Part shown: positions 20,490 through 61,375 of the stretch, one piece after another
Position numbering within the stretch: position 1 is the first letter of the stretch
How the letters are laid out: each line of letters opens with the position of its first letter
Origin: Dicyema japonicum
Taxonomy: Eukaryota > Dicyemida > Rhombozoa > Dicyemidae
Assembly (NCBI GenBank): GCA_011109175.1
Contig: RDEW01000021.1
Location: 934,797 to 998,796 of the forward strand
Direction of reading: 5' to 3'
DNA length: 64,000 nucleotides
Made by a program: the position numbers and the translations under genes
Notes under the pieces: model-generated
The model's input: only the letters and a program-made list of their open reading frames with translations
The model's database searches: none
What the model was told of the DNA's origin: nothing

Positions 20490-20822
20490 TTTAGTTGCGT
20501 AGCGCCATATGGTGCTTCGTGGCTACTTGGTTGAAGTTTCTGCTTTGTTCGTCTGTTCCTCCTCTCTCTTCCTATTAGAGTGGCGTCATGTAATCCACCT
20601 GTCCAGGTGGCGCCCAGTGCTTGGCTGGCACGAAAAAGGATCATTTGCTTTCCCCCAATCCACTGGAGGGGTTTCCACAACTGCAACTATGGACATCTTT
20701 TACCATTTATCTGATTCCGGATGGAATCTGTTCCTTTAGAAGTAGAAACTGGATGCACTTAATTAGTTGTTTACTTTAACTTTTTCTCGGTGTATTCTGG
20801 GTTAATAAATAAATAAAATAAG
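20490..20822 (+). mobile_element. SINE-A, near full-length
   Basis: Head TGGTGCTTCGTGGCTACTTGG, core GGCGTCATGTAATCCACCTG, then GGATCATTTGCTTTCCCCC and AATCCACTGGAGGGG, ending in GGGTTAATAAATAAATAAA. The 3' hairpin arms are GGATGCAC (20751-20758) and GTGTATTC (20790-20797), which pair with G-U wobbles. No coding capacity. Confidence 0.75.
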
Positions 20823-20859
20823 AAATAAATTATAAGTTGCCTGTGGCAACTAACTAATC

Positions 20860-21140
20860 CAAGGAAAGAACCTAGGGATAACATCTGCTTGTGCCGACCA
20901 AATCCATCCTCCAATAGTTCCTTACAAGCTTCCGCTTCAGAAGAGAAGTGGAGAGGTAGGTTCGCTTTTTTCCATTTTCATCAAACGTTCTATCGTCACG
21001 GACGTCACTTCATTCTTCGGCAAAAGGGTTTTTATAATGGCAATTTCCATCAGTGGATTTGGTCAGGGGAAAATAGGAGGATATCTAGGATTCGAAAAAA
21101 GTGACCCTTGTGGTTGATCAGGAATTTCACATTACAAAAG
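20860..21140 (-). mobile_element. SINE-B copy, reverse
   Basis: Reversed, it matches the family at 27040-27310: GAATGAAGTGACGTCCGTGACG, a GAGAGGAGG-like centre, GGATGGATTTGGTCGGCACAAG and a GGAACT-rich end. Non-coding. Confidence 0.6.
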
Positions 21141-22536
21141 TGTCGATGATTATAAACCCACAACCACAATGTACTCGATTAGTCATGAAAACCACAATGT
21201 ACTCGCTTGCATCTCTCATGGACAAGTAAGATGATCAGGGGGAGAGAAATAATCTGTATAGAAAAAGTGGAAGTATTATGAGACATTAAGTCAATAAGTT
21301 GAAATATAGTTGGCTGTGAGAGGACCGAACAGCGGAGCTATGGTGAACACAGCCAAGTAAACTGCATGGCATTTTTAGAAAAAAATTTTCGGTTTCTATT
21401 TATAAAGTAGTGACCCCCACTTTCTCCTTAAAATTTACCATATCAATTCAGTTCTTAATGAAGAAATCAAGGAGTTTTATTCTCGTTGGATAGCCAAGAA
21501 TTATATGAAAATAGCACAAGATGTCTAGTTTGGAAGTCTGGAGTCAAATAAGAGGAGGGAGAGGACCGTGATGAAATGGTCCTATGTCATAGTTGCTTGA
21601 ATAGAAAACTTTTTTATAAAATATTTTAGTCAATGGTTGAATATATTTGGTTGAATAATAATGAATAATATTTTAGATATCACCCCCAACAAGTAAGCTC
21701 ATAAAGCGGTGGTATAGTAATCAAAGAGAATGATCTACCTGACTTTAGTAATATTGAAATTCTTTTGGATGCTAATGTATATTATTTTGCAAAACTTAAC
21801 TAAAAGAGTTTTCTCCTCGTCGCTTCTGAAACACCGCGGACAATCTTCCATGTTAGATTCCTCCACACTCTCATTGAAAAGGTGATTTTTCGAAGGCCAT
21901 CTAGGTAGTTAGCATTTTAGAGTTTCTTTTTTACAGTTACAAGATTTTTGTGAATTGCAATAGAGAGAGAGTAGCGTGGACGTCCGCGGTATCCACAACT
22001 GCTCTGTAAGTAAGCTTCCATATACTTTTTGAAAATTTATAAAGTCAACTAATTCCTACTTTAAAGGTTGTAGTTTGTATTTATAACAAAATGTGCAAAT
22101 AGACCCGAATTTTGTGGATATGTTTGGTTTAATTTCTGACAAACACATGACGAGGAAGCAATGTAGAGAAGGAAGAAACATTCCTTATTAATAAGTTTAG
22201 AAAGGATTTTTATTGTAAATTAAACTGTTTCCTTATATTCTGATAATATACTAACAAAATCAAACGATCGGCTTTGTTGTCCCTTTTATACGACCTAAGA
22301 TGGGCTATTTCTTCTCTTTCTCCGGTCCACCTTCGAGTTCTTTTTTAATCTTACAATAATAATTTTATTAAGAACTTAAAAGATAATTATATTAGGATGA
22401 ACAATAGAAAATTAAAAAAATTATAAAAATTCGACGGAACCGTTAAATAAAATTATCCAAATTTAATAATTTCATAAATTATTTTTTAATTAAAATAAAA
22501 TAAATTTAAATATATTACCATCATAAATTTTGTGCT
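21141..22536. other. Intergenic region upstream of SF3B1
   Basis: About 1.4 kb without a supported gene. The last 200 bases are very AT-rich and lead into the SF3B1 start. Confidence 0.4.
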
Positions 22537-25500
22537 ATGTCAGGTGTTATTGACAGTAATGAAAGTAAGGCTTTAAACATAAAAAAATATAAAATTAACA
22601 CAAATAAATACCTTATTTTTAGATATTGAAAAGAAGGTTAAAGAAATTCAAAATAATAGAGCTAAAATTAACAATGAGAAGCAACGTATGGAATCACTCG
22701 TGGGAAATTCGTCTAACTACGATGATGACATTTATAAGCAGTCTGCGAGTGAGTATGTAACCTCAATCCCTCCTATTGACAGAATGGATGTTGAAATATT
22801 GCATAATCCTTAGGGAAACCAAATAATAAGCAGGGATCTTAATAATCTTCACAATACGGATAATACCGAAGATCCTTTTGCTGAATATCGTGTCCCAACC
22901 ATAGCAGACAGGGAAGATGAATATCACTCACGTTTTCGTAAGAGAGGGATATCCCCAGAAGAGGCAGGACCCATTCACATATGGTGGTGATACACCTGTC
23001 TTCTCAAAAGTTATGAAAGAACGTGATTTGGACGAAACTCGAGTAATTTAAAGATCATTTATAGAAAGGAAGATTATATTAAGCAACTAAGTGGGAATTC
23101 TGGAGGAGTTAAGCGTAAATGGACTGAAGAAGAGACTCCCTTAAAGCAGGATTGGGATCAAACACCATTATATGTGAAAAAGGAAGCCACTCCCGTCAGA
23201 GATTTTGAAACCACCCCTAAAAGAGCAATTGATATTGGTGGTAGACGAAACAGATGGGACTCGACAGCAGTAGAATCAGTTGAAGAACCAACTCCAGGTG
23301 CTGGGTTGAGAAGATCTCGTTGGGATTTAACTCCCGCCAATATATCTACCCCAGTGACTCCAAAATACGAGTCTCAAGATGACGACTATGACTTTTCTAT
23401 ATCCAATTCTGAGGTTAAAACGCCTTTAAATATGGATGCTCCCACACCAATGGGAGAGTTCGCATCTGAAATGATGACTCCGACGCCAAGTTAGTCTATA
23501 CATACTATTTTAGGTCGTGTCATTCAAATGACTCCCGAACAGATTGTTGCCTACAGTCTGCAGAGAGAACTAGATGCTAGAAATAGACCAATGACTGATG
23601 AGGAACTAGATTCCCTCCTCCCTGCTGGATACAAAGTACTTAAACCCCCAGCATCATATGTCCCTATAAGGACACCAGCTAGGAAAATCACATCGACGCC
23701 TACACCAATTACAGCTGATAATTTCTTTTTGCAAAAGCCTGAGGACAAAATTGAAGTTCCAAATTATCAGCCTGATGGTGACCTCCCAGTTTTAAAGCCG
23801 GATGATCTTCAATATTTTAAAAAATTGATGGTTTGACGTTTTAATTATGGTAGGATAACGTTGATGAGAATCAATTGGATTCTAATGAGAAGAAAGAACG
23901 GGAAATAATGGCATTTTTATTGAAAATAAAAAATGGTACCCCACTTATGCGAAAATCTTCCCTTCGACAAATTACAGAAAAGGCTCGTTACTATGGTGCT
24001 GGGGCCTTGTTTGGTCAAATTCTGCCTCTCTTAATGTCCCCAACTTTGGAGGATCAAGAACGACATTTACTAGTGAAAACAATTGACAGGATTTTGTATA
24101 AACTGGATGATTTGGTGAGACCTTATGTGCATAAAATACTTGTCGTTATTGAACCAATGTTGATTGACGAAGATTATTATGCCAGAGTTGAGGCAAGGGA
24201 GATTATTTCCAACTTGGCTAAGGTATGTTTTATAATTATATTAGGCTGCTGGTTTGGCCACAATGATATCTACATTGAGACCAGATATTGATAATATTGA
24301 TGAATATGTTAGGAATACTACAGCTCGAGCTTTTGCAGTTGTTGCCTCTGCCCTTGGTATACCATCACTTTTGCCCTTCTTGAAGGCTGTCTGTCGGAGT
24401 AGAAAGTCATGGCAGGCTAGACATACTGGAGTAAAGATAATTCAACAGATTGCAGTATTAATGGGATGCGCAATTCTCCCCCATTTAAAAGGAATGGTTG
24501 AAATTATTGAGAAGGGTAGATATTTAATGGTAATTGGGTAGGTTTGGAAGATGATGAACAAAAAGTGCGTAGTATAACAGCAATGGCTATAGCGGCTATG
24601 GCTGAGGCATCAACTCCATATGGTATTGAATCATTTGTTTCAGTATTAAAGCCATTGTGGAAGGGTATAAAGCAACATAGAGGAAAGGTATCAATATTAT
24701 GAATATTTTAGGGATTGGCTGCTTTTCTAAAGGCTGTGGGTTGTCTCATTCCCCTAATTCAGGCACAACATGTAAATTTATATATTCGAGAAGTTATGAT
24801 AGTACTAATTCGTGAATTTAATTCAGCTGATGATGATATGAAAAAGACAGTACTTAAAGTAACATTATATCAATATTTGAGGTTGTTAAACAGTGTTGTG
24901 CTACTGATGGGATTGAAGTTAGTTATATTAAGAGTGAAATACTTACTCCGTATTTTAGAAATTTTTGGAATCAGAGAATGTCAATGGATAAACGTAATTA
25001 TCAACAAGTAATTTATTAGTATTTACTATCAGGTTGTGGATACTACGGTTGAGATTGCTGGGAAAGTTGGGGGAGCAAATATTATTTGGAGAATTGTCGA
25101 TGGATTGAAAGCTGATTCTGAACAATTTAGAAAAATGTCGATTGAGACGATTGAGCACGTTTTAATAAATTTGGGTTCTGCTGATATTAATTCTAAATTG
25201 GAAGAGTATTGATTGATGGTATTCTCTATGCTTATCAGGAGCAGACAAGTGATGTATTATATCATAGTTATAATATAGGATAATGTTGTTCTAAATGGGT
25301 TTGGGGCTGTCGTTAATGCTTTGGGAGAGAGGGTAAAGCCTTATCTCCCCCAAACGTCCGGGACAATCCTTTGGCGATTGAATAGTAAAAGTGCTAAGGT
25401 CAGACAGCAAGCGGCCGATTTAATAACAAGAGTGGCTCCCGTGATGAAGCTTTGTCATGAAGACAAACAAATGAGTCACCTATCTGTCGTGCTTTATGAA

Positions 25501-26572
25501 TATTTGGGAGAGGAGTATCCTGATGTTCTTGGTAGTATTCTTGCGGGACTTAAAAGTATTGTTAACGTGGTCGGAATGACAAAGATTAATCCACCAATTA
25601 AGGATCTTCTTCCTAGATTAACTCCAATACTAAAGAATAGGTAATATTTATGGTTGACTGTTAGAAATGAAAAAGTACAGGAGAATTGTATTGATTTGAT
25701 TGGTCGTATAGCTGATAGAGGCGCAGAGTTTGTTTCTCCCAGGGAATGGATGAGAATTTGCTTTGAATTGCTTGATTTATTGAAAGCTCATAAAAAATCA
25801 ATTCGTAGAGCAGCAGTTAATACTTTTGGCTATATTGCTAAGGCTATTGGGTATCATTATGAATTATAACATAGTCCTCACGATGTTCTAGCAACATTAT
25901 TGAATAATTTGAAAGTTCAGGAACGACAAAATAGAGTGTGCACTACAGTAGCTATTGCCATTGTCGCTGAGACATGCTCTCCCTTTACTGTCCTTCCATC
26001 ATTGATGAATGAGTACAGAGTTCCTGAATTGAATGTTCAGAATGGTGTTTTGAAAGCAATGAGTTTTATGTTCGAATATATTGGGGAAATGGCTAAGGAT
26101 TATATTTATGCTGTTATGACTTTATTACAAGATGCCTTAATGGATCGGTATTTTTTGGTTTTCATGTGATAGTGATCTTGTTCACAGACAGACAGCCATG
26201 TCGGCTATAGGACATATGGCTATCGGTGTTTATGGGTTTGGCTGTGAGGATGCATTGATGCATTTAATTAACTACACATGGCCTAATATATTGGAAACCT
26301 CACCCCACGTGGTACAGGCTTTTATGTGTGCTTTGGAAGGATTCAGAATTGGACTTGGACCAATTCCAATTATGCAATATTGTATTCAGGTTTTTATTAT
26401 GTTTTTATTTTAGGGATTGTTTCACCCTGCTCGTCGTGTCAGGGATGTTAGTTGGAGGGCATATAATACTGTTTATATTGGTAATCAGGATGCATTAACT
26501 CTGGCCTACCCACGTATTCCTGATGAAGGACGTAATCATTTTGTGAGATATGAACTGGACTATATTATTTAA
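22537..26572 (+). CDS. SF3B1: SF3B1, U2 snRNP branch-site recognition subunit
   Basis: The product would clamp the branch site within the SF3b complex of U2 snRNP. Exons: 22537-22564, 22623-22789, 22814-23042, 23065-23489, 23514-23830, 23854-24222, 24245-24515, 24542-24687, 24712-24858, 24882-25007, 25033-25253, 25279-25640, 25665-25850, 25875-26147, 26173-26389 and 26414-26572. The first intron is 58 nt; the others are 22-26 nt. With three one-base corrections the protein is 1213 aa (human 1304). The N-terminus keeps RWD-type ligand motifs ([16 protein letters not shown]). Next is the block MTPEQ...RPMTDEELD, then the HEAT domain (for example [51 protein letters not shown]). The Lys equivalent to human K700 is present (DEQKVR). 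Frame breaks: an extra base near 22967, an extra A near 23065 and a missing base near 25208. Confidence 0.95.
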
Positions 26573-27035
26573 CTTTTTCACCCTAAAGTAGTCTTTGATT
26601 TTTATGTTTGCTTAATAAGCCATCATATTCAAGGACACATTTCATAATAGCTCCACTTGTCTCGAAGTAACTGCATGGAATGTAAAGAGGTCGAGAAGTC
26701 ATTAATATTTATTTACTTTAGTCTTCTAGTACCTTTATCGCTCCTGATAATATTAGTAGAAGATAGGGAGTCGATATATGTGGCTACTCTTCTTCGAATA
26801 GAAAGAGTGTAATTCTGTCGAGCTTCTCTGTCTCCTTAATTCAGGTAAACGATTTCCAATTTGAAGGAATCAGGCAGACTTTAGTGGATCTCATCATTTC
26901 GTGAATTTTCTTCAGCATGAAAGAGCATAGCTTCCATAGGTATCGATGGTTCTACTACATCGGTTATCAAAGCCCACAAACAAATTAAACAGTGGAACAT
27001 CCGTTTCCTTTTGTTAGCTGTTTCACTTTCTTTGT
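26573..27035. other. Intergenic DNA
   Basis: No supported feature. Confidence 0.3.
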
Positions 27036-27039
27036 GGGT

Positions 27040-27310
27040 CTCTTCTTTTTTGGCTGGTTTCGATATTCCGCTAAAGAATGAAGTGATGTCCGAGACGGTA
27101 GTACGTGGGACAAAAATGGAAAAGGGAGGATTTACTTTTCCACCTCTCTTCGGAAGTGGAAGCCTGTAATGAAGTATTAGAAGATGGATTTGGTAGGCAC
27201 AAACAGATGTTCTCCCTTTGGTTCCTTCCTTGGATTAGTTAGTTATGACTGTTTGTGCTGGGTTTACAATGATAAGCCTGGGGTTAATAATAAGAAACAG
27301 GCAAAACTAA
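27040..27310 (+). mobile_element. SINE-B copy
   Basis: Shares GAATGAAGTGATGTCCG, GACGGTAG, TCCACCTCTC, GGATTTGGTAGGCACAA and GGTTCCTTCCTTGGATTAG with copies at 43180-43465, 54455-54725 and 20860-21140 (-). Ends in GCCTGGGGTTAATAATAA. In better copies the tail can fold (GCTTAC with GTAAGC at 54700). Confidence 0.65.
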
Positions 27311-27479
27311 TGAAGAATCCTTTGAGCTTCTTATCCATTAATCTAAGATTTCCGCTACCAAAAATATGTTAGCAGCAAAAATCAATTCTCGTCAAGCAAA
27401 TCCTACCCGTGAGGCGACGAGTCTTTTAGGCACGGCACACTAGTTGAGCAGATTTTCTGGTGAAGTAATCTTCACCAAA

Positions 27480-27610
27480 GGATTATGAAAACTCTTTGAC
27501 GAAGAATGAGGTGATGTCCGCGACGGTAGGATTTTTGATGAAATGGAAGAGGGCGAACTTACTTCTCCACCTCTTGCAAAAGATTGTAAGCCTATGGAAA
27601 TAAATAAAAG
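27480..27610 (+). mobile_element. SINE-B fragment
   Basis: Contains GAATGAGGTGATGTCCGCG, ACGGTAGG and TCTCCACCTCTTGC, then AAAGATTGTAAGCC. An internally shortened copy of the 27040 repeat. Confidence 0.55.
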
Positions 27611-28370
27611 GATTCGTCAAAAAGAATAGAATTCATTAAAATTTTATGATAATTGTGATTATTTTGTAATTTTATTCCAAACATAGGCACCTTGTCTCTA
27701 AAAGTAAGTAACAATTAGACCTTTCCTTTACACGGGTAATTCTCTTCCTTGCGACAATTATAGATTGAATCATAGCAGATTTGTTCCACCAGGGTAGAAT
27801 TAGGAGATTGGGCTTCAATAAGATTCACAGGAACTAAGAAGAAATACAACAGCAGACCTATCCCTGGTGTATGTTGTTTCATTATCTCAGAGTAATTTTC
27901 ATTATTTTTAAGCTTATGGCGTTTATAGTCATTTTTGCTAGTACTTAATGATTTGGCGGTATTTTTGACGGAATTGTCGTGTTTGCTGAATTAACTCGAA
28001 TAAAATACAAGCTTTTCTCAGATTCGATTGCTTTGAAAACGGGTTCGTTCAGAGTTCTGGCGTTTTCTCTCAAGACGGACCAACTGTGTGGATGGGGGGC
28101 GTTTCTCCTATCATCTGGTGTTAACACTATGGAAGTTATTTCTTCTTTTTCTTGAAGTTTCGAAAAATTTGATTGTTTCTGTGTTGAATATGCGGAATGT
28201 ATCGACACTTAATATAATCATTTTTTTACTTTTGCAGAACTTTCTTTCTGGATTGCATAACAGGAACATAAAAGAAATCCATGGAAATGAATATTTATTA
28301 ATAATTAATATTTTTTAAATATTTTTTAAGTTTATTTTTTTAAACAAGATAATTTATTTTTTAAATTATA
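27611..28370. other. Non-coding stretch
   Basis: No gene supported; it is strongly AT-rich from 28200. Confidence 0.3.
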
Positions 28371-28375
28371 AATAA

Positions 28376-30430: not shown

Positions 30431-30434
30431 TACA

Positions 30435-30505
30435 TTACAGAGATCAGTGGAACCTTCAGCCGGAATGTACAGTAGCGAGACTCGAACTAAGGGCTTAAGA
30501 CACTG
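30435..30505 (-). mobile_element. tRNA-related SINE fragment
   Basis: Reversed, it contains a B-box-like GTTCGAGTCTCGC and CTGTACATTCCGGCTGAAGG, matching 19675-19720. Only the head region remains. Confidence 0.5.
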
Positions 30506-41109: not shown

Positions 41110-41720
41110 TTATGTTATTTATTTAACCCAAGACCACGGTAGAACCGAACTAATTGTCACGTGATCCCGATGCATTCTAACAGAGACCTCATCTTTGCCC
41201 GGTGTTCATCCTTCGTGCCCGCGTATGAACGTACAGGACGGCTGCCTGAATTTTCAGGGCCACCTTCCCGTGATCTGGAGTCTTGTCTCATAAGGTCCTC
41301 CGCCTCCAGAGGCGTAGGTTCGGTTCAGTGATTTTCACAAATCAAACGCTCCGTTACTCTGTGAGCCCTCTTTTGCATTTCCTCAATTTTCTTCATATTT
41401 GTCCAAGACATGGACGGTCCCCACGAGGCGCATGCATATGAGAAACATGGCTCGATGTACTGTTTGTACACGTTCATCAAGACTGGGTGAGTACCACTCT
41501 TCCATATTCCAGATAAACATTTCAATACGTTCAGTTTCTTCTCCCATTTCAATAGAATGTTTTCTACGTGTGGTGTCAGAGATGCATATCAATTGTCACA
41601 CCCAAGATCCTTTGACATCTGTTGAAAGGGATGCCGACTTTGTTTAACTTCAAGGTGACTGTCTTCCTTCCCAATCTCTTGTCAGAGGTAAATAGTGCCG
41701 GGCAGGCATTGGGAAGAGCC
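41110..41720 (-). mobile_element. Jockey-like LINE, 3' half
   Basis: On the minus strand: ALFTSDKRLGRKTVTLKLNK, then MKWEKKLNVLKCLSGIWKSG. Next are VYKQYIEPCFSYACASWGPS and IEEMQKRAHRVTERL, the usual C-terminal RT order. The 3' end has hairpin arms GATCACG and CGTGGTC (41160-41166 and 41132-41138 on the plus strand) and a TTAAATAAATAA tail. Degraded by frameshifts. Confidence 0.75.
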
Positions 41721-42030
41721 CTACACTCTTCGTATACCGAGAGTTTCATCCATGAAATACCTGGGGATTGCAGTAGATGGGAGAGGATCATACCTGAAGG
41801 ACATCGAAAGGCGAAAGAAGAAGGCTTTGCAAGCACTGTTCTGCACTAGAAGACTAAAGTTGGATGTTGATTCCATGCTCTTTGTCTTTCGGAATGTGAT
41901 TCTTCCCAGACTTATTTACAGAAGTGAGGGATGGTTCTACACCCCCTCGAGAGAAGATTCTCGCCCGACTAGAGAAAACAAGGCGAGCGGCAATCAAACC
42001 GCTGCGCTCTCAATCTGAGAGCAGCCAGTA
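41690..42030 (+). mobile_element. LINE RT C-terminal fragment, plus strand
   Basis: Encodes SMKYLGIAVDGRGSYLKDIE, RRKKKALQALFCTRRLKLDV and MLFVFRNVILPRLIYRSEGW, a YLG-type segment and downstream thumb of a LINE RT. It butts against the opposite-strand LINE at 41110-41720. Confidence 0.7.
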
Positions 42031-42835
42031 GCCTTTAACTATTTGGTTTTATTCTTCAATAAATTGTTATTGATTTAAAGAAAAAAAATTAAAAAAAATA
42101 TCAAAATACTGGGGATCATATAAGACCTAATTATTTCAGCAAGCATGTCAGCAATGTCATCACCTTTTCCACAAAAACTAAACCTATAAAATCACTTTTT
42201 GGATACCATAAAGGGTGTTTCCACTCAACCTTAAGTTACCTTTATGCGCAATACAATTAGCTACGGCTGTACGGCCACGTATCTTTTTATCTCGGTGATC
42301 CTTGGTTATAAATAATATGGATTCATCGATGGACTTTTGTTGTTGAAATGATTTCTTCCGTGCAAATAAAAGACTAATAAATGTTTACTAAACTTTTATA
42401 GACCAAGACTGGATGAGGATGACCAGAACATACATAGCGAAATCGAACTACATGTTAACTTTCCTGAATGTGTAAAAGTACCCCAAGTAGATTCCCTGTC
42501 TCAAATTATTTTCTATTAATCTGGAGGCAATGGAATGTAAAAATGCTTTGATCTAGTAATGGTATACCAGATCAGCGTGAATTAATCGATAATCTAATTT
42601 GACACTTCCACCCAAGTCCCTCTGAATAGCGACTTCATCGTTTCCTGATGTTTCTCTCGGAAACCAACGCATTTTCTATATACAATTTTGGGCGATCTTC
42701 CAGGGTGGAAGAACGGTAGCAAAAATACTCACGAGTGCTTAGAATGAAACGTGAAGTTTAAATTCAAATCATTTTATTTAAAATAATGAAAATTAGGCAA
42801 TAATTAGGATCTTCTTGACCTCCGCCTGTCCAGGT
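42031..42835. other. Non-coding stretch
   Basis: No supported feature. Confidence 0.3.
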
Positions 42836-42839
42836 TAAT

Positions 42840-43175
42840 TTGTATTCTTTCTGTGACCTTCTGGATGTTCTGATCTCGGGAAGCCAACACAATATCATCC
42901 GCATAGGAAAGTAGAACATCATTATGCTTAAAGAGTAGGGAGATCAGTCAGAAAGAGGTTAAACAGAGCAGGGGATAACGGATATCCTTGGGGGACTCCT
43001 TTGGGGAAGAGCCGTGAGATTGATTTCAGGCCCCTGAGGAGAACACGTCTCCTTAGGAAGTTAGTGATCCAAAGCTTAGCCTCCCTGGGATCTCCGATTG
43101 AAATATTTTTTCTAGATACTGATATAGAGAAAGTAGAATATCTGATTTTATCAAAGACATCTATAGTAAAATCTA
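42840..43175 (-). mobile_element. LINE RT fragment
   Basis: On the minus strand: NISIGDPREAKLWITNFLRR, RVLLRGLKSISRLFPKGVPQ and GYPLSPALFNLFLTDLP, followed by a decayed YADD region (ATAGGAAAGTAGAACATC in plus orientation). Only the palm segment of the RT remains. Confidence 0.65.
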
Positions 43176-43179
43176 CTTG

Positions 43180-43465
43180 TGTTAAAAGGGATCTTCCTAT
43201 CTACCACCAGACGAAATCCACTGGTGAAGATTACCATTATCAAAACTTCCGACGAAAAATGAAGTAATGCCAGGAAGTGCGATGAATATGGAAGAGGGTG
43301 AACCCATTTCTCTTCAGAGACGGAAGTCTGCAATGGACTATTGAAGGATGGATTTAGTAGGTACAAGCAGACGTTTCCCTGAGGTTCCTTCCTTGGATTA
43401 ATCAGTTGTGACTGTGGGCTTACCAAAGATTGTAAGGCTGAAGTTAATAAATCTCTATTAAAGAG
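43180..43465 (+). mobile_element. SINE-B copy
   Basis: GGGATCTTCCTATCTACC, GAAATCCACTGGTGAAG, TGAAGTAATGCC, GGATGGATTTAGTAGGTAC and GGTTCCTTCCTTGGATTAA, with the end GATTGTAAGGCTGAAGTTAA. It lies just downstream of the VPS4 stop on the other strand. Confidence 0.6.
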
Positions 43466-43486
43466 CAATTCCAAAATATTAATAAA

Positions 43487-48949: not shown

Positions 48950-49400
48950 CCACGTTTGGAACGCGTCAATTGTGAAGGCTTTGGAAACTAAAGGATGTTT
49001 GACCACAGTCTGCCTTGATATTTCCAAGATAAAAAAGCATTCTGTTTTGAGCACTGTATATAAACAATTCATTGAACCATCCATCTCTTATGCATGTGGT
49101 ATATTGGCCCCGCTCATCTCTTGAACGAATGTCTTGAAGATCGAGGCTAGCAGGAAAAGATCCTCCAAAATCACAGAACGCTGGAGAGTTCCAGGCACCA
49201 TTGCCACTTGAAGCCTTGATACGAATGAACCATGGAACGCGTCGTCGTGACTGCAAAGGTTTAGTCACTCGACCGATATGTGCTTGTGTAGGGTCGAGGG
49301 AGGAACATCGGGCAAAGATGAGGTCCCTGCTAGTGCGTGCTGGGATCACGTGATTAGTGAGTTTGTGTAACCGTGGTCTTTGGTGTTATTATTATTATTC
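48950..49400 (+). mobile_element. Jockey-like LINE 3' end
   Basis: STVYKQFIEPSISYACGILAP is homologous to the minus-strand element at 41110. The frame then decays and ends in GLVTRPICACVGSREEH and RAKMRSLLVRAGIT. Hairpin arms are GATCACG (49344-49350) and CGTGGTC (49372-49378), followed by a TTATTATTATTATT tail. Confidence 0.75.
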
Positions 49401-50610: not shown

Positions 50611-51070
50611 AGATAAAACGAACGAAATTTTATTAGTAACAAAAAAAATAAGGAGTAAAGTGGAGGGTGTAGTATTTTTAATCCTGCCATTAGGCTGGAC
50701 ATTTCGCCTGTTTCCCTCTCCTTAGTTTAACTTTGTCTGAATGTAAGAGCTTCGGACTTTGGTTTTCACCATGAAAACCTCTATTTTCCTCTAGATTACG
50801 CACTTAATTGGTGTTAAGAGTTTATCTTTAGTTAATTCATCCATTAGCCTTCTTATCAAGGCAAACTTGATGTCTGTCCTTCTTTTTCTCTAGTAGGGAA
50901 TCTATTTTGTCCTTCTTTTGGAGAAAAACCATCCCTCACATCCTTAGAGCAAATTTGGGAGAATTACTCCACAGATGAATATGTCTTTGGTTACGTGTAG
51001 CTTTCGTATATATAAAAGCGCTTGCAGAGCTTTCTTATTCTAATATCTTCCATATACACACGGCTACTTA
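50611..51070. other. Non-coding stretch
   Basis: No supported feature. Confidence 0.3.
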
Positions 51071-51075
51071 TTTAT

Positions 51076-51970
51076 TTATTAACCCAGGGATCACCGAGAA
51101 AGAAAGACAAAAGTAAAGTCAACTAGTTAGGTGATCCCAGTTCCCGCAACCATCCTAAGCCTGTGCGTTTCTATTGTTCCCACTGTCGAACGGAAATGAC
51201 TTTTTTGATCTTTGCAGAGGAAGCAGGTTTGGGAAGGAATTTTCTTAGCCAACCGATTTTCTTTTACGTGGAACAGTGAGAGGCTTAGTGGGTGTACATC
51301 TTTCTCGCAAATGCGGAGAAATCCCGAACCACATCTACGAGTTGTAGATTCCGCCAGCAGGGGAGGTATTTTTGTTCCACATTGTGGTCCCAGCATACGT
51401 ATTGTTTTCCTTTGCAGTAAGTTTAGTTTTTGGATAGTGGTCTCTGATAACGCGAATCTCCACGCAGCAGAGGCATATTCCACGATTGTCTGGCGGTATA
51501 TGGTTCCGATTGCTTTATTCATATTCGCTGGGTCTTCTGGATGAGGGCCCGTGTGACATTCAATTTCTGTAGTCCTTTGGTGAAGAATTGTTTGGCATGG
51601 TAGGTGAAATTAAGCAGCCTGTCGTATGTTACTCCCAGTATAGATGGTTTCTTGTGACAGGTATCCGAGTATATCTGATGAAGATTTCTGGTTTTTCTTT
51701 GGACCGCCGGGCGGAAATGAATAGAGTGCCTGTTGATTTTGGAGCCGATACCGAGAGACGGTTAGCTATCAACCAATTGTGGATACAATCCACTTTCTTG
51801 TGCAAGTGAGACTGCTTCTGATGTTGAACCGCTTCTTGTTGCAATGATGATATCGTCAGCATAAGAAAGCAGTAGGAAGTTCTTGTCAATGTCTGCTGGC
51901 AGGTCGTGGAGGAAAAAGTTGAATAGAGTTGGGGGACAAAGGCGAACCTTGGGGCACTCCGTTTGGTAGT
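51076..51970 (-). mobile_element. Jockey-like LINE, RT to 3' end
   Basis: On the minus strand: LLSYADDIIIATRSGS with the catalytic Asp pair, LIANRLSVSAPKSTGTLFIS, KAIGTIYRQTIVEYASAAWR and LLQRKTIRMLGPQCG. The frame ends at HRLRMVAGTGIT. The 3' hairpin arms GGGATCACC and GGTGATCCC lie at 51130-51138 and 51087-51095 on the plus strand, followed by GGGTTAATAAATAAATAAG. A few frameshifts interrupt it. Shares its end with 1812-2000. Confidence 0.8.
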
Positions 51971-54450
51971 CTTGGAGAATAAAAAAGTGAAATTTTACTG
52001 TTCAAGTATTCTTTTGACACACTGGTTCAATTAAATTGTTATATACGATATCTGCCTCCTCTTTCGTCGAACAATTCCTCCTAAAGCTACCCTAGAAAGA
52101 TAACTGCCCTCTTCTTTTTTTGGGTTAAACAACTAACTTTTTTGTTTACTTATTTATTAACCCCGGGATTTATTATTTTTTGTTTATTTATTTTTGTTTT
52201 GTTTATTAAAATAAAATATTATTATTTAAATTAATCACGTTTATGTTTATTTTTGTGGTATTTGTCCGTCTTAATTGACTGTTAATTTAACAGTTAGCTT
52301 TTGGCGGAGACATTGTTGTTGGTTTAAACGCTATGTTCACTGAATGTCGTAGTTCTTGCCAAATACATTTAATTATTGTTGTAATTATTACCGTTATCTT
52401 AAATTGTTAACGAACATAAGAGAATTGACTATTTTCAAGGTGGCATCGAGTTCTATGGCGGGATCAAAGGGTTCGTTTACCATCAGCGGCACAAATATGC
52501 AGGATGCATAGTCCCCCCATTGACGTTCTATCAATAACATTGGGATAAGGGTAAGTATATTTTTTGGATAAACGAACATCTTAAAACTCATAATGAAGTC
52601 AGATTTTCAGTATCCCAAAGACCAAGACGTGAAGAGATGTTTCAGCATCTTTTGCCTACATTCCTGTAGGGGCCATCAGTCATTGTATCCATGATTAATT
52701 TTTCTGGAATCCTTAAAAATCTTTGTCAAGAAGAAGGAATTAAAGACCTGATCTTTATTTTGATGATGCCCATATTCATCATTATTGATTAAAATAGCAA
52801 ACCTCCATGACTCTATTTACCCCCTTATTCAATAATTTTTTTGTTACATCGTTTTTTACCTTTAAAAAATTTAGTGACACTATTGGTAGGGAAACGACAC
52901 CTCTATTGCACTATGTCTTATTCGTATTCCTTACCGACTTCTCCGTTCACTCTGGGATCTTTCAATTGAAGAGGACATAATCAACCTTACAAGAAACACC
53001 AACTGGTATGCAATCTAACCAAATATGACGTCTCTCTCTGCTGTCTACAAAGAGACAAAAACGACCATACAATGTACAGAACTGTTTGGAAAATTCCACC
53101 TTTTTATCCTCCCGTCGCCTGCCGACATTATGGTCTCGGATTTGAGTCCATCAGGACCTGATTCACTACGTTACAAGAGTGAACAGTATCTGATATGTGC
53201 GCAACAGAAAATCATTGTCGAAGCTAACGGAGAGGATGATTCGGAATACGCCACAAGGGAAACTTAACTAGTTTTATGTTTTCTCGGGAGTGCTTTTTAA
53301 TAATATAATAATTGGTAGGGAAAGTTACGCTAATGGTTGGGAAGCTCTAAGAATCCACACTTCCTATGGAAATGTCATACTATGGTCACTATGTAATACG
53401 ACTAGGGATTTAAGAAAAGTCGTGGCTTACTGCATCGGAGACTTATCCAACTTGTATCGTGAAATGAAAAATGTTAGACAATATGAACGAAATGATATGG
53501 GAATTAATTCTAGGAACAAAGAACTCACTATGTGATCGATCGTTTATAAGCTAGTTGAATTTGCTTGATGTGGTGCAAAGATTCTGAGAGACCGTGCCAC
53601 CGAATGAAAGAATTCCAGTTCTTTGAATTCTGCTTTCTAATGCCCGACGGTAAGAAATGTTATAAGAGTGCGGTTCCGGGCCGACATCATAAACAAGACA
53701 AAAGTAAAAAATGGATTAAAACTCACTTTTGGTGGATATCACTAGTTAAGTGTGAGATGAAATGAAGATCCACAATAGGAACGTCCTTATTCTACTGATG
53801 TAACCTGTAGACTAGGAAACCTTAGTATGGACGTCTATTGAAAACTCTGTCTTCCTGTAGTGATGGAGACAAACTGGGGTTTTTTCTCACTTGTTCTATC
53901 GCATTGGAGCATCCTATGAAATATTGGAAGTAACCCATTTCAAAGGCTGAACCCTAACATGTTTTTCCTGACTTGATATTAGACAAATGGACCGGGATCA
54001 CCACTGGAAGATGCTGATAAGCTGTGTAACTAATATTAACTATCTGAGCAGATGTATCACCTAAAAAAGACCAATTATGTAAATTCTCGTGATCTTATCC
54101 CCCATTGGATTTATCACAGAATAGAAGGGGACTCAAGAGAATCCTTCTTGCCTACTAACCAGATGAGATAGTCACACTTCGTGAATTTCATGTGAGTAAA
54201 TGAAAAATCAATGTTAATGAGACTCTTCAAAAAGTGACCCGAGAGTCAAATCTAATTTGACGGTAGTTTAAAAAATTGGGTATATCCAGGTCGATTGAAG
54301 TTGCCAGGCATCAGAATGACACCTAAACGAGAGGAACCCAACAATGACACGATAAGCTACAAGCCAATAGGTTTAATGTGCTTGATGCCAAAATGATGAA
54401 ACACATCGTCTTCAAGTGGCTCTCTGAACATGTTGAATCAAGTAATTGTT
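51971..54450. other. Long gene-poor region
   Basis: Several short open frames occur: 52394-52591 (-) with IERQWGDYASCIFVPLMVNE, 53025-53267 (+) and 53290-53535 (+). None could be joined by introns into a recognised gene. The first is the most protein-like. Confidence 0.3.
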
Positions 54451-54454
54451 TGGG

Positions 54455-54725
54455 TCTGAAAGGGATCTTCCTACTTTCTCCCTGACCAAATCCTCTGGTG
54501 ATTACATAATGAAAACATTCTGCCGATGAATGAAGTGATTTCCGCGACGGTAGAACGTGTGATAAAAATGGAAGAGGGGCAGCCTACTCTCCACCTCTCT
54601 TTTGAAGTGGAAACCTTGGTGGGTACAAGCAGATGTTATCCCATGGGTTCCTTCCTTGAATTAGTTATAACTGTTTGTGCTGCGCTTACTAAAAGATTGT
54701 AAGCCTGGGGTTAATAATAATCATA
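54455..54725 (+). mobile_element. SINE-B copy
   Basis: GGGATCTTCCTACTTTCTC, AAATCCTCTGGTGATTAC, GAATGAAGTGATTTCCGCG, GGTTCCTTCCTTGAATTAG, then GCTTACTAAAAGATTGTAAGC, a small perfect 3' hairpin, and GGGGTTAATAATAATC. Confidence 0.65.
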
Positions 54726-55330
54726 ATAATCTCCCCCTCCAACCTTGATATGACAGCAAATCACCCAGAGTCAGTCTCGGAAAAGGCTAAGAAGAGGATA
54801 TATGAATGTCTCGGGTTGACAGTTCATTTTTGAACCAGTCGCCGGAAGCTGTTCACTAACCAAGCTAAACCGTATCCCTTATCGCAATAAGAAAAAGAAA
54901 CGATGAGAAAGGACCTGGATCATTGCATTCCTTACAATCGTCGGTGGTTCAATTTTAAAATCTAATACATTCGAAGCTGGATCCTACGTGCTCTCTTGAC
55001 TTTCTTTGCATAGAACTTCGTGTTTCCGATATCTCTCGAGTCGCTCACATCTACCATGCTTACGAGAAAGGAAGACTTAAATCTAGCAGACATTATGTGC
55101 TTAAAGTACGTCACCATTTCATTCTTTCAAGTAATTAACCATTGATTATCTGAAGTGCTATTAAAATTTCTTAGAATGTGCATTCACTCACGGAAAATGT
55201 TGACTCGGCTTTAATTTTAAAATTAGACAATTTCAAAGTTATTTTGATTGTCTTTTGACTAATAATTTTTTTCTGAATAAAAAAATTTCAAAGTTAAAAC
55301 AGCACGTATTGAATTTTTTTTAAACCAATT
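54726..55330. other. Non-coding stretch
   Basis: No supported feature. Confidence 0.3.
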
Positions 55331-55335
55331 AAAAA

Positions 55336-55960
55336 AATGTCAGTTGAGGAAGCCTGCTGCGTGGATTGCGAACGAGTTTCCTCGGAGTATGGCTATTCCT
55401 ATCTTTTGTCTTAGCCATAACCCTTCTCGTTGATCCCTTTTCTTTCTGGCAAGCAATCCTCCGAGTTCTCGCAAGAATTCAGCCGTCATTGGACCAACGG
55501 CTCCCGATGATTCGGTCGCAACAGGAGTAAATCGTAGCGATCCCCGAGGCAAGAATATTTCTTGATTTTTAAATTTTCCGCAGTCGAAGCTGCTACTCCA
55601 GGTGTCTGAACAGATTTAAAAATGTTCGTGTTTGAAAACGTGTCTATGCAAGTTGCGTCCCAGACCAAAGATCTTCCAGACGTGAAGGGGAAAAGGGTCA
55701 TCCCATCAGGTCTCTTCCCATCTCCTCGATCAAGACCCACTGGTTCAAGCTGTGCTGGGAAGCCTGAAGCCTTCAGAGCTCTGACGATCACATCATTCAG
55801 AGCAGCATTGACGTGGTCCCCTTCCGGCGCTTCTTCTGCAAGGACAGCGGGTGCAATCCTTTCGCATCGACTGTTTTCCCGCATCGGCATCGGTGCTCCT
55901 GGCAAACGTCTAGTCCCAGCCTTTGTCCGATTGAATTTATAAAAAAATTGATGCCTTATA
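55336..55960 (-). mobile_element. RLE-group LINE C-terminus, best-preserved nuclease
   Basis: On the minus strand: [20 protein letters not shown], then LDRGDGKRPDGMTLFPFTSG and RSLVWDATCIDTFSNTNI. The PD...D residues are intact. The conserved tail domain follows (STAENLKIKKYSCLGDRYD, SSGAVGPMTAEFLRELGGLL) and ends GNSFAIHAAGFLN. A frameshift splits it at about 55520. Very similar over the last 320 bp to 11506-11826. Confidence 0.8.
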
Positions 55961-56325
55961 AAAATCAAGGATATCACGTATTACTCAAGTTAAGAGAATC
56001 TGAAAAGAGTTTGTCACATAAAAAATCGAAGGAACTGTGAACGTAAGCTTGGGACAGTTGAATTACCATGTCTAAGGATCATTTAGTCACAAATCCGCAA
56101 GAAATGAGACCCCTTATTTCGCGTTAAGAATAAATTAATATTGCTCCAGAAAGTGTTTAAAATCAGAAAATAATCATGATTTCCTAAGGAAGCTTAGGAA
56201 AGTGTATCCATTTAAATAGAAACTGGCCTGAGATGTATTTTGCCCTGCTATTCTTGGAAAATTAATACAAATCAAGTCACTCTTGCAGCGCCTAGCGTTT
56301 ATCTACAAAACAGCTGTCGGGCGAA
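55961..56325. other. Non-coding stretch
   Basis: No supported feature. Confidence 0.3.
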
Positions 56326-56329
56326 TAAT

Positions 56330-56640
56330 AATAACTCCAGAGACCACGGTTACACCAAACTGACAAATCACGTGATCGCATCACGCTCTAGCAAAGACCT
56401 CAACTTGGCTCGATGCTCCTCTCTCGACCCCACACAAGCACGTATTGGAAGAATGACTGGATCTTGGTAATCATGACGGCCACCCATGGTTCATATGTAT
56501 CATGGATTCTAGAGGCATTAGAGGCTGGGACTTTCCATAAGTTAATCGTTCCGTAATTTTGGTGGCTCTTTTTCGGCTAGCCTCGGTCTTCAAGATATTT
56601 TTCCAAGAAATGAATGGATCCCAGAGGCCACAAGGATTTT
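56330..56640 (-). mobile_element. Jockey-like LINE 3' end
   Basis: Reversed, it resembles 49130-49400: a decayed WRGSIHFL segment, ARIGRMT-like residues on the plus strand, and the hairpin arms GATCACG and CGTGGTC (plus strand 56371-56377 and 56342-56348). A TTATTATTATT tail follows. Confidence 0.65.
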
Positions 56641-56644
56641 TAAA

Positions 56645-56870
56645 TTAAATTTATTCCAAAGACCAAGGGTAACCAAACTAACTAACTCCTTGATCCTGAC
56701 TCGTAGCAGCGCTCCAGACTTGTCTCCAGGTAACGAAATTGTCCCCGGGGAAAGATAGTGGATCCTCCTGATGCCGGCAAGACATTTGGCGTCTTCTCAG
56801 TAAGGAAAGAAAATAATTATGACAAACTAGCCACATAGCACAACATGGAACCACGTGGCCAAAAATTGTG
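56645..56870 (-). mobile_element. SINE with SINE-A-like head and alternative tail
   Basis: Reversed, it starts GTTGTGCTATGTGGCTAG, has GACGCCAAATGTCTTGCCGG and AGGATCCACTATCTTTCC, then the hairpin arms GATCAAGG and CCTTGGTC. Non-coding. Confidence 0.55.
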
Positions 56871-57021
56871 ATTGATAGTAAATAATATTTATTTCATTTA
56901 GAATTCGACACCATCCGCGCGTCCATGATTGCGAGATAGGGAGTTTGCGACTCTTTTCAAACAATTCAAGTGAGCAATGCCACCACGTAGGCGAGTCACA
57001 CGGCATGAAATTTCGTAAATA

Positions 57022-59260
57022 TTATTATTACCCCCAGGATCACTGGGTCAAAGAGAAAGAATAAAAGTTCTCATCTAACTAAGTGATCCCAGATCGACAA
57101 AGGAGAGGACGAGTCCTGGCGTGGGTCGAGAATCCTGAACAGCTTTCTCATTGGACATGGAATCGGCTCAAATTTCTGTATGATTGTAGATATTTCGATA
57201 GTGTATGGAATAGCATCGGGCCTCCTTTAAGAGTTTCGTTGTAATTCGATTAAAAATTTTCAATGGGATGGATTTCGTGTTCTGGTCCAATTAGCCTTAT
57301 TGCAGTTTCCTCGATTGCGGATAGTATCAATGGAGGATTGTGAAATCTGCATTGCCCATGAAGGACTTGCACACGTCATCTTGGTCGGATAAATTGTTCA
57401 TAAATCGTGGCAAGGCCACTAGTTTGGTCTCTAATGTTTTTGAGAGCATTTTAAAATTCTCATTTTCTTCAGAGCAGAAGTTACTTGTTTTTAACATGCC
57501 GGATAAAGGTGAGTCCCTGATAAAAGGTTACTTCCAGAATCTTTGGTGTTTTGTTAATAGAGATAGCTTCGTTCTTCATAAAGACTTTTGGTTCGATACA
57601 GAGCTGTCTCTTGTAGGTGGTAAACAGTGTGAAAAAGGACTTTGCTGCTGATGTGTCGAGTCTCCGCTTCGAGAGCCATAGTTCCAAGTTGTCGAGCATT
57701 TGTTGAGCAAACTGAGTCGCTGATTGAATGCTTCTGTCCTTGGAGGCAAGAATGATATCGTCGGCGTATGAGAGGATTAGACAGTTTTCATTACAGGTTT
57801 GTGGCATGTCGTTTATGTAGAGATTGAAGAGTTGGGTGATAGTGGGAGCCTTGAGGGACTCCATTTGGGAAATAGCGAGATCTTGATTTGATGTTGTTGC
57901 AGAGTACTTGTGCTCGTCTTCCATTTAGGAAGTTTCCAAGCCAAAGTTTCAGGTTCGGATGGATGTTGGTTTCAAATATTTTCTTTGTTAGAGTTTCCTA
58001 GGGACTGAGTCGAACGCTTTTGTGATGTCCACGGATATAAGTACTGTCCTCTGATGGGGTTTGGGGGAGTTAAATCCTTCCGCAATGAATTGTGTGAGGG
58101 TTGTAAGGTGTGTTGTCGTCGAATGGTTTGTCCCCGTGCTGGGTCGGAGGTATTGAGATTGAGTCTTATATTTTTTCCAAAACAAGCCTTTCAAGGATCT
58201 TTCAGACCGGACTTAGAATAGATATTGGGCGATAGGAAGATGGTTCATCTATTAGTTTGTTGGGTTTTCGGATAAGTCTGATTAGAGACTTTTTCCATAT
58301 TTCAGGGATTGTATTTGTGTTAATGGATAGGTTGAATATATAGGCTTATAGTTCCAGGGCTCGATGGCCTAGGTGCTTCAGTTCACATGTGGTTATGTTG
58401 TCTGGTCCTTTGGCCTCTGAGTTGTTGGCCTTGGATATGGCTCTGCGGACATCCTGGCTAGTAAATAGGATCCAGTCATCGGAGCGTTTCGGTTCAATCT
58501 TTTTCAGGAATACTTGGTGTTCTTTTGAAAACTTCTTGTAGGAGATAGACGTATAGTATTTTATCAGATTGTCTGGTTCTATGTAGACTTCGACTTTTCT
58601 CTCTGGGAAGGATCTTTTGATGTTCTTGATCCCCTTCCAGACTCTCTGCATTAGGGGGTTTTTGCAGAGAGCCTTTGATAGTCTCGTCTATCTACTTGCA
58701 TTTTCTGCCTTTATGTTGTTGTCGATCTCTCTGTTCAATTCACGTATTTTTCTGATGTTCTCTTCTGTTGGCGATTTTACCATCTTTAGATTATTTCGTT
58801 CTCTGATCAGATGTTTCGTCGTTGTGTTGAAACGTTTTGATGACGTAGGTTGTCTCCCCATAGGAATGTACTTAAATTTAATAGTACAATACAATTATCG
58901 ACGTAATCCTTGAATCCTCTCCAATTCGCAAGGCTGTAGTTAGTAATCGTTGGGCACTGTTTTTTTATCCGTGACCTTGTTTTGACCTCCAAAAATATTG
59001 GATTGTGGTCACTCCTGATGTCATACTTCACTGACCAGTCAATAAGAGGGGCCAAGGACGGTGATGACAATGAGATGTCGATAGAAGAAGTTTATCGTTA
59101 CGTCGAGTAGGTGTTCTTGTATGAGATGCAGGATCGTTGAGTATGCATAGGCTGTGTAGGTCCTCAATTATCATCTTCCCTCTTTTGTCGTAGGTTTGTC
59201 CTGTCAGCCACAGTGGGTGGTTCGCATTGAAGTCACCACAGATAATCACATCCTTCAGTG
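57022..59260 (-). mobile_element. Jockey-like LINE with endonuclease and RT, degraded
   Basis: The longest LINE in the window. From 59260 downward: apurinic-type endonuclease (VIICGDFNANHPLWLTGQTY, then DIRSDHNPIFLEVKTRSR). Next is a linker, then the RT: NNSEAKGPDNITTCELKHLG, RTVLISVDITKAFDSVPRKL with the first Asp, LFNLYINDMPQ and LILSYADDIILASKDRS with the Asp pair. The 3' end has arms GGATCACT and AGTGATCC (plus strand 57082-57089 and 57037-57044) and a GGGGGTAATAATAATA tail. Several frameshifts and stops make it inactive. Confidence 0.82.
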
Positions 59261-59426
59261 ATGCGAGAGGAGTGAATCACATCCGTAAATAATATAGTAA
59301 ATTACAACAGAAAATGAAGAAAATTACTGAGTTATTAATAATCAGTAAATTGAAAACATTTTTTTAAATAAAAATTTTGAATTAATTTTAAAATTATGTT
59401 TTGTTGTGATTTATAATGTGACTTAA

Positions 59427-60344
59427 ATGGTTGGAAATGGAATACTTAACGAAGGAATATATGAAATTGTATTGGGGGACTCTTTTTATAAGGATAGACC
59501 TAACAAACAGAGAGCTTGCCACCACACTATCCGCTGTATAATTACTATATTTATTTAGACGACTTCAAACCCGCCTCGGTGAATGAAAACAACGGGACAA
59601 TTGAATTTGAAGATGACGCAGTTACCCTGACCCACCCGACTATAGAAGCAGTACTCATGAACCTCTATTTAGACTCGCCCTGAACATGAAATAGTCTACA
59701 AGGGAAGCAAGAGGCCGACAAATAGAGAGTGCATTATTATCGTCGACAACGAAAATAAGAGGCTCATCTTCGAGAGGATTTCTTCTGCCATCAATCTGAA
59801 GAGGTCTCAGACTATCACGTCATCATCCACCTATATGACGTCATCGGATTTGGTGACGCCAGAAGGTGGAAAGGATACTCTCACAGAGAATTTTAAACGA
59901 GGACTAAAAATCCCTGCTGATATTGGGGAGGAAGTCGACTCTGAAAAACCGCCTTGTCTGCTTGATTCAGATTTAAATAAGACTGGTACCTCATCAAATG
60001 GCGACCCACGTGTAAACGAACCAAATAACACATTCATTTCAACTGTTAAGGATTTCAGGGATCAAGAAAGATCAAATCTTGCCAAGAGACCGTGTTTATC
60101 CCGAAGAAGTGTTACTGGGGATCAACCAGTAGCTGGTACCCAGACCAAACAAGTCATCTCCCATGAAAAAATGAGTCAGTTAAATTGTCATAATTTATCT
60201 GATTCAGAGTCTTCCATTTCTGAGAGTAAGGGTGACTCTGACCTAATCATTGATACAAATGAAGGAGCTCTTGGTTAGTGTTGTCATGATTTTGTAGTTA
60301 ATGACCTGGTGTTATCTTCGGACTCTGATCTCGTTGATTTGTGA
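59427..60344 (+). CDS. EAF: EAF, ELL-associated transcription elongation factor
   Basis: EAF proteins bind ELL and raise RNA polymerase II elongation in the super elongation complex. Exons: 59427-59535, 59559-59650, 59673-60273 and 60298-60344. The introns are 23, 22 and 24 nt. They total 849 nt, 282 aa (human EAF1 and EAF2 are about 260-270), with no frame break. The N-terminal domain shows VLGDSFYKDRPNKQRACHHT, IRYDFKPASVNENNG, VYKGSKRPTNRECIIIVDNE and RLIFERISSAINLKRS, in the family order. The middle is Ser-rich and disordered, and the end is acidic (NDLVLSSDSDLVDL), like the transactivating tail of animal EAFs. The start is chosen because the family begins a few residues before LG(D/E)SF. 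EAF1 and EAF2 cannot be told apart. Confidence 0.92.
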
Positions 60345-61040
60345 ATGTTTGTTTTTATAAATTAAATTTGTTACTTTTTTGTAAATAATAGCTACCCTGC
60401 TTCAAGTACCTGTTCTGCCTGTAAGAGTGCCAAGACATTAAAATTTCAAATATGCTAACCTCCAAGGCAATGTGACGTTTTTTCCTCGCTGTGGGAACTT
60501 GGAAATCTAATTTCGACCCACTCGGAAGACGTTAGCGAAAACTACTATTCGAGCGGAATTCTTTGGCACTACGGAATAGTGGTCCTCGACTTGAAAGTGG
60601 TCAAAAAATAATTTTATCAAAAAGTAGAATAGCCACGCAGTTAGAGTGCGGCCCTGTAACTCTGATTTTGTTTGTTTTTGCTATTATTTCAGTATTTGTC
60701 AAATGTATCGTTTTAGCCATCCATATTTGTACTCGTTACTGCGCTACACCTTCATCAAGGGACCTTTTATGTGGATTGTAGTTATTTCTGATCACTTTTG
60801 TTTAGCTTGAAGAAACAACTCCATTAGACTCACAACTCGGATAAATTCATTGGTACAAACACAAGCAAGTACCACTGAATGGTTTTACTTTGAATTTTTT
60901 AGAATCAATTAACTTCCCTCTCAATGCTTGTCCCCATCAATTCGTGATTTATATTAGTTCCAGCCGTTAACAACTTTTTTGGGCACTTATTAGAGCAACT
61001 TTCAGGAAAATCCCTTAAAAGTATTCCGGAAAAACACACA
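60345..61040. other. Region downstream of EAF
   Basis: A plus-strand frame near 60563-60780 has a hydrophobic stretch (LILFVFAIISVFVKCIVLAI) that could be one membrane segment of a small protein. No splice joins or family were recognised. Confidence 0.25.
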
Positions 61041-61046
61041 AGGATT

Positions 61047-61375
61047 TTATTTATTAACCCCGGATACACCGAGAAAGAAGTTAAAGTAAACAACTAATTA
61101 AGTGTATCCAGTTTCCACTTCTACAGAAAGAGTCCATCCGGAATCAGCATAAAGGGTAAAAGACGTCCATAGTTGTAGTTGTGGAAACCCCTCCAGTGGA
61201 GTGGAGGAGAGCAAATGATCCTTTTTCGTGCCGGCCTGACACTGGGCGCCCCCTAAACTGGTGGATCACATGACGCCACTCTAATGGAAAGAGAGAGGAA
61301 GGACAGACAAACAAAGCAGAAACTTCAATTAATTAGCTACGAAGCACAACACGGAGCCACGCGGCTATTTTCAAA
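61047..61375 (-). mobile_element. SINE-A, near full-length, reverse
   Basis: Reversed, it starts near GTTGTGCTTCGTAGCTAATT and has the core GGCGTCATGTGATCCACC and TCCACTGGAGGGGTTTCC. The hairpin arms GGATACAC and GTGTATCC (plus strand 61102-61109 and 61062-61069) pair perfectly. The tail is GGGGTTAATAAATAAAATC. Confidence 0.75.

Follow-up and report, generated by a model that had tools for sequence, protein, structure and literature searches.

Why do copies of long and short interspersed elements (LINEs and SINEs) lying near one another in a single genome end in a hairpin, and what does the hairpin do? The question arises in a 64,000-nt stretch of Dicyema japonicum DNA (GCA_011109175.1, contig RDEW01000021.1, positions 934,797-998,796, forward strand), hereafter called the window. 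A sequence-only reading of it had noted LINE and SINE copies ending in a stem around a loop, with arms that vary in concert, and had taken these hairpins for a recognition element on which unrelated LINE types and SINEs had converged, or which they had exchanged. Our analysis of the window and of the whole genome indicates that the hairpin is probably the 3′-end recognition element of one clade of LINEs with an APE-type endonuclease and of two SINE families that use those LINEs.

All eight arm pairs cited in that reading lie where it had placed them and pair as written, each with zero to two G-T pairs (Table 1). It had given the loops as 28-45 nt; with the arms as cited, the coordinates give 19-37 nt, and the four GATCACG/GATCAAGG hairpins have loops of 19-22 nt. 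The tails that it named follow five of the eight ends (TTAATAAATAAA, TAATAATAA or the near form TTAAATAAATAA), while three ends differ, with TTATTATTATT at 49344 and 56342 and AATAAATTTAAT at 56661. The observation as a whole thus holds for the hairpin sites and fails for the loop lengths and three of the tails. The same kind of end also occurs at 2715-2760 (+) and 18746-18790 (-), and in degenerate form near 1920 (+), 37961 (+) and 19126 (-). An Rfam search of the window gave no match at the gathering level.

Among LINEs, the hairpin is carried by families that we call F1, F2, F3 and B and by one further element, at locus L017, whose stem has a mismatch when read by eye; the SINE families are called S1 and S2. 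Only F1 has an intact frame among the families here. This frame, at locus L032, matches PF14529, PF03372 and PF00078 above cut-off, that is, an APE-like endonuclease (EN) and a reverse transcriptase (RT) in one open reading frame (ORF2), with no Pfam match for RNase H; the best matches in protein searches with the LINE were unnamed proteins. Near its start the L032 frame also holds LLILLCGDVETNTGP, which we take to resemble a 2A ribosome-skipping motif with Thr for Pro; the relatives P0121 and P0124 have GDIESNPGP and GDIETNPGP there. Nineteen fetched LINE 3′ ends were read by eye, of which 15 carry the hairpin or a slightly broken form of it; it is lacking in L037, L042 and L047, and the fetched L051 sequence is too short to show it. 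A further 20 fetched ends comprise 16 from F1, three from F2 that have the hairpin, and L091, which is without the 3′ arm.

The whole genome (64.67 Mb, 191 contigs) was searched with patterns built on the hairpins. Fixed complementary arms yielded 740 matches, many being overlapping readings of one tail; the F2+S1 pattern, with its 3′ arm free, yielded 489, the B pattern, with most of the 3′ arm fixed, 258, and the F3 pattern, with both arms largely free, 173; the reversed control of each of these four patterns gave no match. The SINE 5′ arm was found with the SINE 3′ arm 503 times, whereas patterns of like strictness gave no match for the SINE 5′ arm with the LINE 3′ arm and five for the LINE 5′ arm with the SINE 3′ arm. 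By eye, four of these five are S1-like copies minus one base of the 5′ arm and the fifth is apparently unrelated. The LINE-type 5′ arm GGGATCAC was seen by eye at seven places among the F2+S1 matches listed, with a SINE 3′ arm behind it at none of them (0/7), and the remaining places in that list have a SINE-type 5′ arm or a point variant. A pattern based on L032 gave only eight matches, or five distinct ends once the duplicate of L032 is set aside, since L032 has a variant sequence; further F1 copies were collected by genomic place, not by this pattern.

The stem is up to 11 bp long with a core of 7-9 bp, and its sequence differs between families yet remains mostly paired. Over eight distinct arm pairs and seven core positions, pairs p5, p6, p7, p10 and p11 have changed on both sides, and p8 and p9 are invariant. 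In an exact permutation of the eight arm pairs, which ignores relatedness, 49 of 56 pairs are Watson-Crick against a mean of 39.6 (p 0.0012), or 55 of 56 against 45.9 when G-T is included (p 0.0012). In alignment A2 (nine rows), 93.9% of cells are paired against 84.8% in shuffles, none of 500 being as high, and in alignment A3 (seven rows) 91.4% against 86.1% (2/500); when the partners are slid by 1-3 columns, pairing falls to 30-47% in A2 and 26-52% in A3. RNAalifold recovers the same outer stem unprompted. It also draws a small inner helix in the loop (A2 columns 21-23 with 37-39), which shows changes on both sides in some rows and is broken in several. Seven chosen representatives were folded against 200 shuffles each, with z scores of -3.5 (F1), -3.1 (F2), -3.6 (F3), -2.1 (B), +0.26 (E1), -5.0 (S1) and -1.6 (S2). 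The compensatory arm changes that the sequence-only reading had proposed are thus seen between families, in the permutation and in the counts of like and mixed SINE arms, and because they are, its further claim of selection on RNA pairing is supported.

The loops and tails suggest which LINE each SINE goes with. S1 is ~320 nt long, with a 5′ end that falls within 5 nt in six fetched copies, and its loop agrees with that of F2 at 27/30 positions, with F3 at 23/30 and with F1 at 22/29; over the whole tail it matches F2 at 59/64 aligned positions and F1 at 54/64. S2 is closest to B (46/51), with a loop identical at 18/18 aligned positions, with gaps. Loop sequence is thus kept within each pair, S1 with F2 and S2 with B. 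The comparison of these elements to eel UnaL2, whose SINE borrows the LINE 3′ tail, was apt in this respect, the S1 tail being nearest to F2 and that of S2 to B. Twelve of 13 fetched S1-matching loci have no LINE protein match, the exception being L056, where one lies far upstream; the S1 match of L054 is confined to the last 71 nt. Two of six S1 copies have flanking repeats (11 and 8 nt) above the control maximum of 7, which may be target-site duplications, and four do not. The S1 copy at 61046-61365 and the S2 copy at 56644-56859 have a 35-nt head stretch in common (80% identity) and a weaker inner one (20 nt, E 0.16), so a related head seems, from these sequences, to have been joined to two different LINE tails. 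A search for a small-RNA origin of the SINEs found none: the window holds no tRNA, and the Rfam matches of S1 and S2 all score well under the gathering level (best E 0.3). The body of S2 is also matched in part at window 9361-9480 (+) (83% over 120 nt), adjoining inverted repeat I14.

In the LINE families read, the 5′ arm is at the same time the in-frame end of ORF2, and the loop opens with the stop codon. In F2, F3 and three B copies, CTGGGATCACN and the TAA, TAG or TGA behind it encode Gly-Ile-Thr-stop in the ORF2 frame; L017 ends in Gly-Ile-Asn-stop. Sixteen F1 copies have GGGATCACCTAA, in one case preceded by CTAGG, with the frame taken from L032, whose own ORF2 ends in Gly-Ile-Ile-stop. 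Since the arm sits at the ORF2 end, the hairpin site is homologous among the LINEs. Pair p11 holds the third base of the Thr codon, on which the protein sequence sets no constraint. In 62 loci among the fixed-arm matches listed, this pair is T-A in 52, C-G in seven, T-G in two and T-T in one, and all five B rows of alignment A3 have G-C there. Because the LINE 5′ arm is also coding, compensated change in LINEs is found at the pair with this synonymous base, and in the SINE arms other pairs have changed with compensation.

Homology of the site bears on how so many families came to carry the hairpin. The suggestion that unrelated LINE types converged on one recognition element, or exchanged it, has in its favour that the families are divergent (F1 and F3 share ~41% RT identity over 301 residues and ~51% in the core), that the SINE tails did derive from LINEs and that branching inside the RT clade is unsettled. 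We nevertheless consider it decidedly improbable. In a tree of 44 RT rows, without named L2, CR1 or Jockey references, F1, F2, F3, B and L017 form one clade (100/100 support) beside the relatives P0121-P0124, while 16 other LINE RT fragments of the genome form another (97/90) and L016 falls elsewhere; this does not support calling the hairpin-bearing LINEs unrelated. The first 20 genome regions, chosen for their top RVT_1 scores and the source of these contrasting fragments, mostly hold LINEs outside the clade; they provide a contrast and do not represent the LINEs of the genome at large. A scan of 3.5-5.4 kb behind the 17 frames outside the clade (L016 included) met no hairpin of this type, with all 7 bp paired, close to a frame end. 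Its sensitivity is low: tried on three controls from the clade itself, it picked up the terminal hairpin of L019 alone and missed those of F1 and L017 because of their mismatches. Two stray matches of the scan lay 4317 bases on (L020) and 1209 bases on (L016). Convergence is also hard to hold because the site is homologous, the hairpin starting at the same place in ORF2 in each family read. One RT clade together with one starting place points to common descent of the hairpins of these LINEs, as judged from their sequences. With 20% and 33% of the tree columns filled, the F2 and B rows are short and their position inside the clade is unsure; with its inner branching unsettled, tails may have been exchanged among LINEs within it. 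The earlier interpretation therefore survives as to compensation, selection on RNA pairing and tail borrowing by SINEs, and gives way as to unrelated LINEs and convergence. A possible parallel is a LINE from another clade that has a different hairpin behind it, TTTCAGGA/TCCTGAAA, with a loop of 42-44 nt and then ATTAATAATAA (L013:4600-4657 (-) and L014:4680-4739 (-)).

The role of the common hairpin is most likely stringent recognition of the 3′ tail by the LINE reverse transcriptase, by analogy with known systems. Behind the stem lies a short AT-repeat tail. The ORF2 protein would bind the hairpin of its own RNA, position the 3′ tail where the target is nicked and start reverse transcription there; the same protein would copy SINE RNAs that have this loop and whose stem is paired, and these RNAs, with no coding constraint on their 5′ arm, could have other pairs rewritten with compensation. 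A hairpin that serves RNA 3′-end formation or stability instead seems very unlikely to us. AATAAA is the canonical polyadenylation hexamer, and several tails have it, TTAATAAATAAA containing it directly behind the stem. SINEs containing AATAAA have been described (PMC8466645). Neither the F3 tail TAATAATAA nor the B ends at 49344 and 56342 contain it, however, and the loop is kept between SINE and partner LINE despite what are presumably different polymerases. RT recognition would account for the kept loops: in zebrafish L2 LINEs, stems are exchangeable and loops specific, and ORF2 uses its part between EN and RT to bind the stem-loop (PMC4176376).

LINE/SINE pairs with a common 3′ hairpin are already known, and the present case is a further member. 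UnaL2/UnaSINE1 of eel and ZfL2-1/ZfL2-2 of zebrafish are given in PMC4176376 (UnaSINE1 also in PMC3747384) as stringent L2-clade LINEs; as here, they have a 3′ stem-loop, there recognised by the LINE protein and in eel common to a SINE, and the UnaL2 stem needs a bulge (PMC4176376). The present hairpin, known from sequence, has a coding 5′ arm and a stop that opens the loop, which may set it apart from these. Plant L1-clade LINEs and monocot SINEs (Ohshima 2013, PMC3747384) likewise have a 3′ hairpin in common, whose stem varies by compensatory mutations and whose loop has conserved nucleotides; the Dicyema elements differ from them in LINE clade, in sequence, in their AT-repeat tails and in the contrast between LINEs and SINEs as to the pairs that change. 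In birds too, the SINEs TguSINE1 and PittSINE have tails derived from a LINE, CR1; these contain a hairpin, considered to be where the RT binds, and finish in a short repeat (PMC5729268). There the tail is common and the heads differ, whereas S1 and S2 share part of the head and differ in the tail, and CR1 ends in an 8-bp microsatellite, unlike the present tails. Here a number of divergent LINE families coexist with two SINE families; both arms of their stems have changed and their loops were kept, which makes them a natural counterpart of the stem-swap experiments with zebrafish LINEs, and the contrast between compensation at a synonymous base in coding LINEs and elsewhere in non-coding SINEs separates RNA selection from protein selection within one short element.

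A number of results weigh against recognition of a selected RNA hairpin. The generic motif (7-bp stem, 18-46-nt loop, AT tail) forms 12 clusters in the window against 6.8 +/- 2.8 in 30 dinucleotide shuffles (maximum 15). Since this count is near chance, the window by itself cannot carry the finding; nine of the 12 clusters (eight loci) stem from these LINE and SINE elements, and the hairpin signal resides in the element families, not in the generic motif. Two of five measures in A2 do not exceed shuffles, namely the number of both-sided pair changes (3 against 2.2, 192/500) and further pair types (6 against 6.1, 410/500), and in A3 further pair types number 5 against 3.5 (55/500). The families and the S2 register were picked by the analyst, and all tests ignore relatedness. 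Changes at p5-p7 occur together and in S1 only, that at p10 in S2 only and that at p11 in few lineages, so that independent events are few. E1 folds no better than shuffles (118/200 as stable), S2 marginally so (12/200), and stem mutations in single copies among the B-pattern matches listed are often uncompensated, as is expected of dead copies. The whole S1 tail is also rather F3-like (56/64), and recognition by the LINE protein is argued from the zebrafish L2 analogy. F1, the family with the intact frame, has U opposite U at p7 in 17/17 copies read. This kept mismatch, the coding 5′ arm and the invariance of p8 and p9 would all fit arms that are alike merely through recent kinship and protein coding, with no selection on pairing. 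We regard that as unlikely, given that the non-coding 3′ arm follows both the synonymous p11 base and the rewritten S1 and S2 arms, that mixed arms are so rare beside the SINE pair and that pairing falls to 26-52% once the partners are slid. Selection on a paired recognition hairpin remains our preferred account.

A stop codon inside the hairpin is the distinctive feature of this case; a literature search, covering titles and the starts of abstracts and so no proof of absence, returned no report of one. It is conceivable, though we would not expect it, that the overlap of ORF2 end and hairpin couples the end of translation to tail binding and hence gives such LINEs a preference for their own RNA. 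A terminating ribosome would have to open the hairpin, which on release would refold where the newly made ORF2 protein is; SINEs, being untranslated, would be free of this coupling, so their stem could be rewritten. If true, this might explain how such LINEs prefer their own RNA.

Table 1. Hairpins and the elements that carry them, in window coordinates unless a locus is named
Feature	Position	Strand	Description
F2 LINE hairpin	51087..51138	-	GGGATCACC, 34-nt loop, GGTGATCCC
Broken F2 LINE, 3′ part	51069..52001	-	RT and C-terminal pieces; end ...GTGIT-stop within the hairpin
F3 LINE hairpin	57037..57089	-	GGATCACT, 37-nt loop, AGTGATCC
Broken F3 LINE	57015..59276	-	EN and RT pieces, relative of L019; both limits approximate
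B LINE hairpin	41132..41166	-	GATCACG, 21-nt loop, CGTGGTC
Broken B LINE	41115..43200	-	RT and C-terminal pieces; end ...IGIT-stop; extent approximate
Hairpin ending B LINE fragment	49344..49378	+	ORF2 end ...AGIT-stop; tail TTATTATTATT
Hairpin ending B LINE fragment	56342..56377	-	Tail TTATTATTATT
SINE S2 hairpin	56661..56695	-	GATCAAGG, 19-nt loop, CCTTGGTC
SINE S2 copy	56644..56859	-	5′ limit from similarity to the S1 head
SINE S1 hairpin	61062..61109	-	GGATACAC, 32-nt loop, GTGTATCC
SINE S1	61046..61365	-	~320 nt
S1-copy hairpin	20751..20797	+	Two G-T pairs
SINE S1 copy	20497..20813	+	87% identity to the 61046-61365 copy
SINE S1 copy	2462..2777	+	Hairpin 2715-2760
Partial S1 copy	2232-2387		Lies before the 2462-2777 copy
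SINE S1 copy	18732..18964	-	5′-truncated; hairpin 18746-18790
F1 LINE	L032:351-3458	+	Intact 1037-aa frame with EN and RT domains
F3 elsewhere in genome	L019		
B elsewhere in genome	L044-L046, L048-L050		

Generic hairpin-plus-tail scans of the window were dropped as without discriminating power, returning many AT-rich chance hairpins. Another repeat type, with TTAGTTAGTT-like letters, occurs at window 27213-27330, 43376-43480 and 54639-54740 (+) and has a short hairpin, GCTTAC/GTAAGC or GGTTTA/TAAGCC, followed by CTGGGGTTAATAATAA or a variant. At L020:2988-3770 (-) lies an RBBP4-like frame with <=49% identity to the listed proteins, which is low for a protein as conserved as RBBP4, and which could be a divergent paralogue. 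An open frame with a DDE_3 transposase domain runs from 15085 to 16107 (+) in the window, its best matches being mostly unnamed metagenome proteins.

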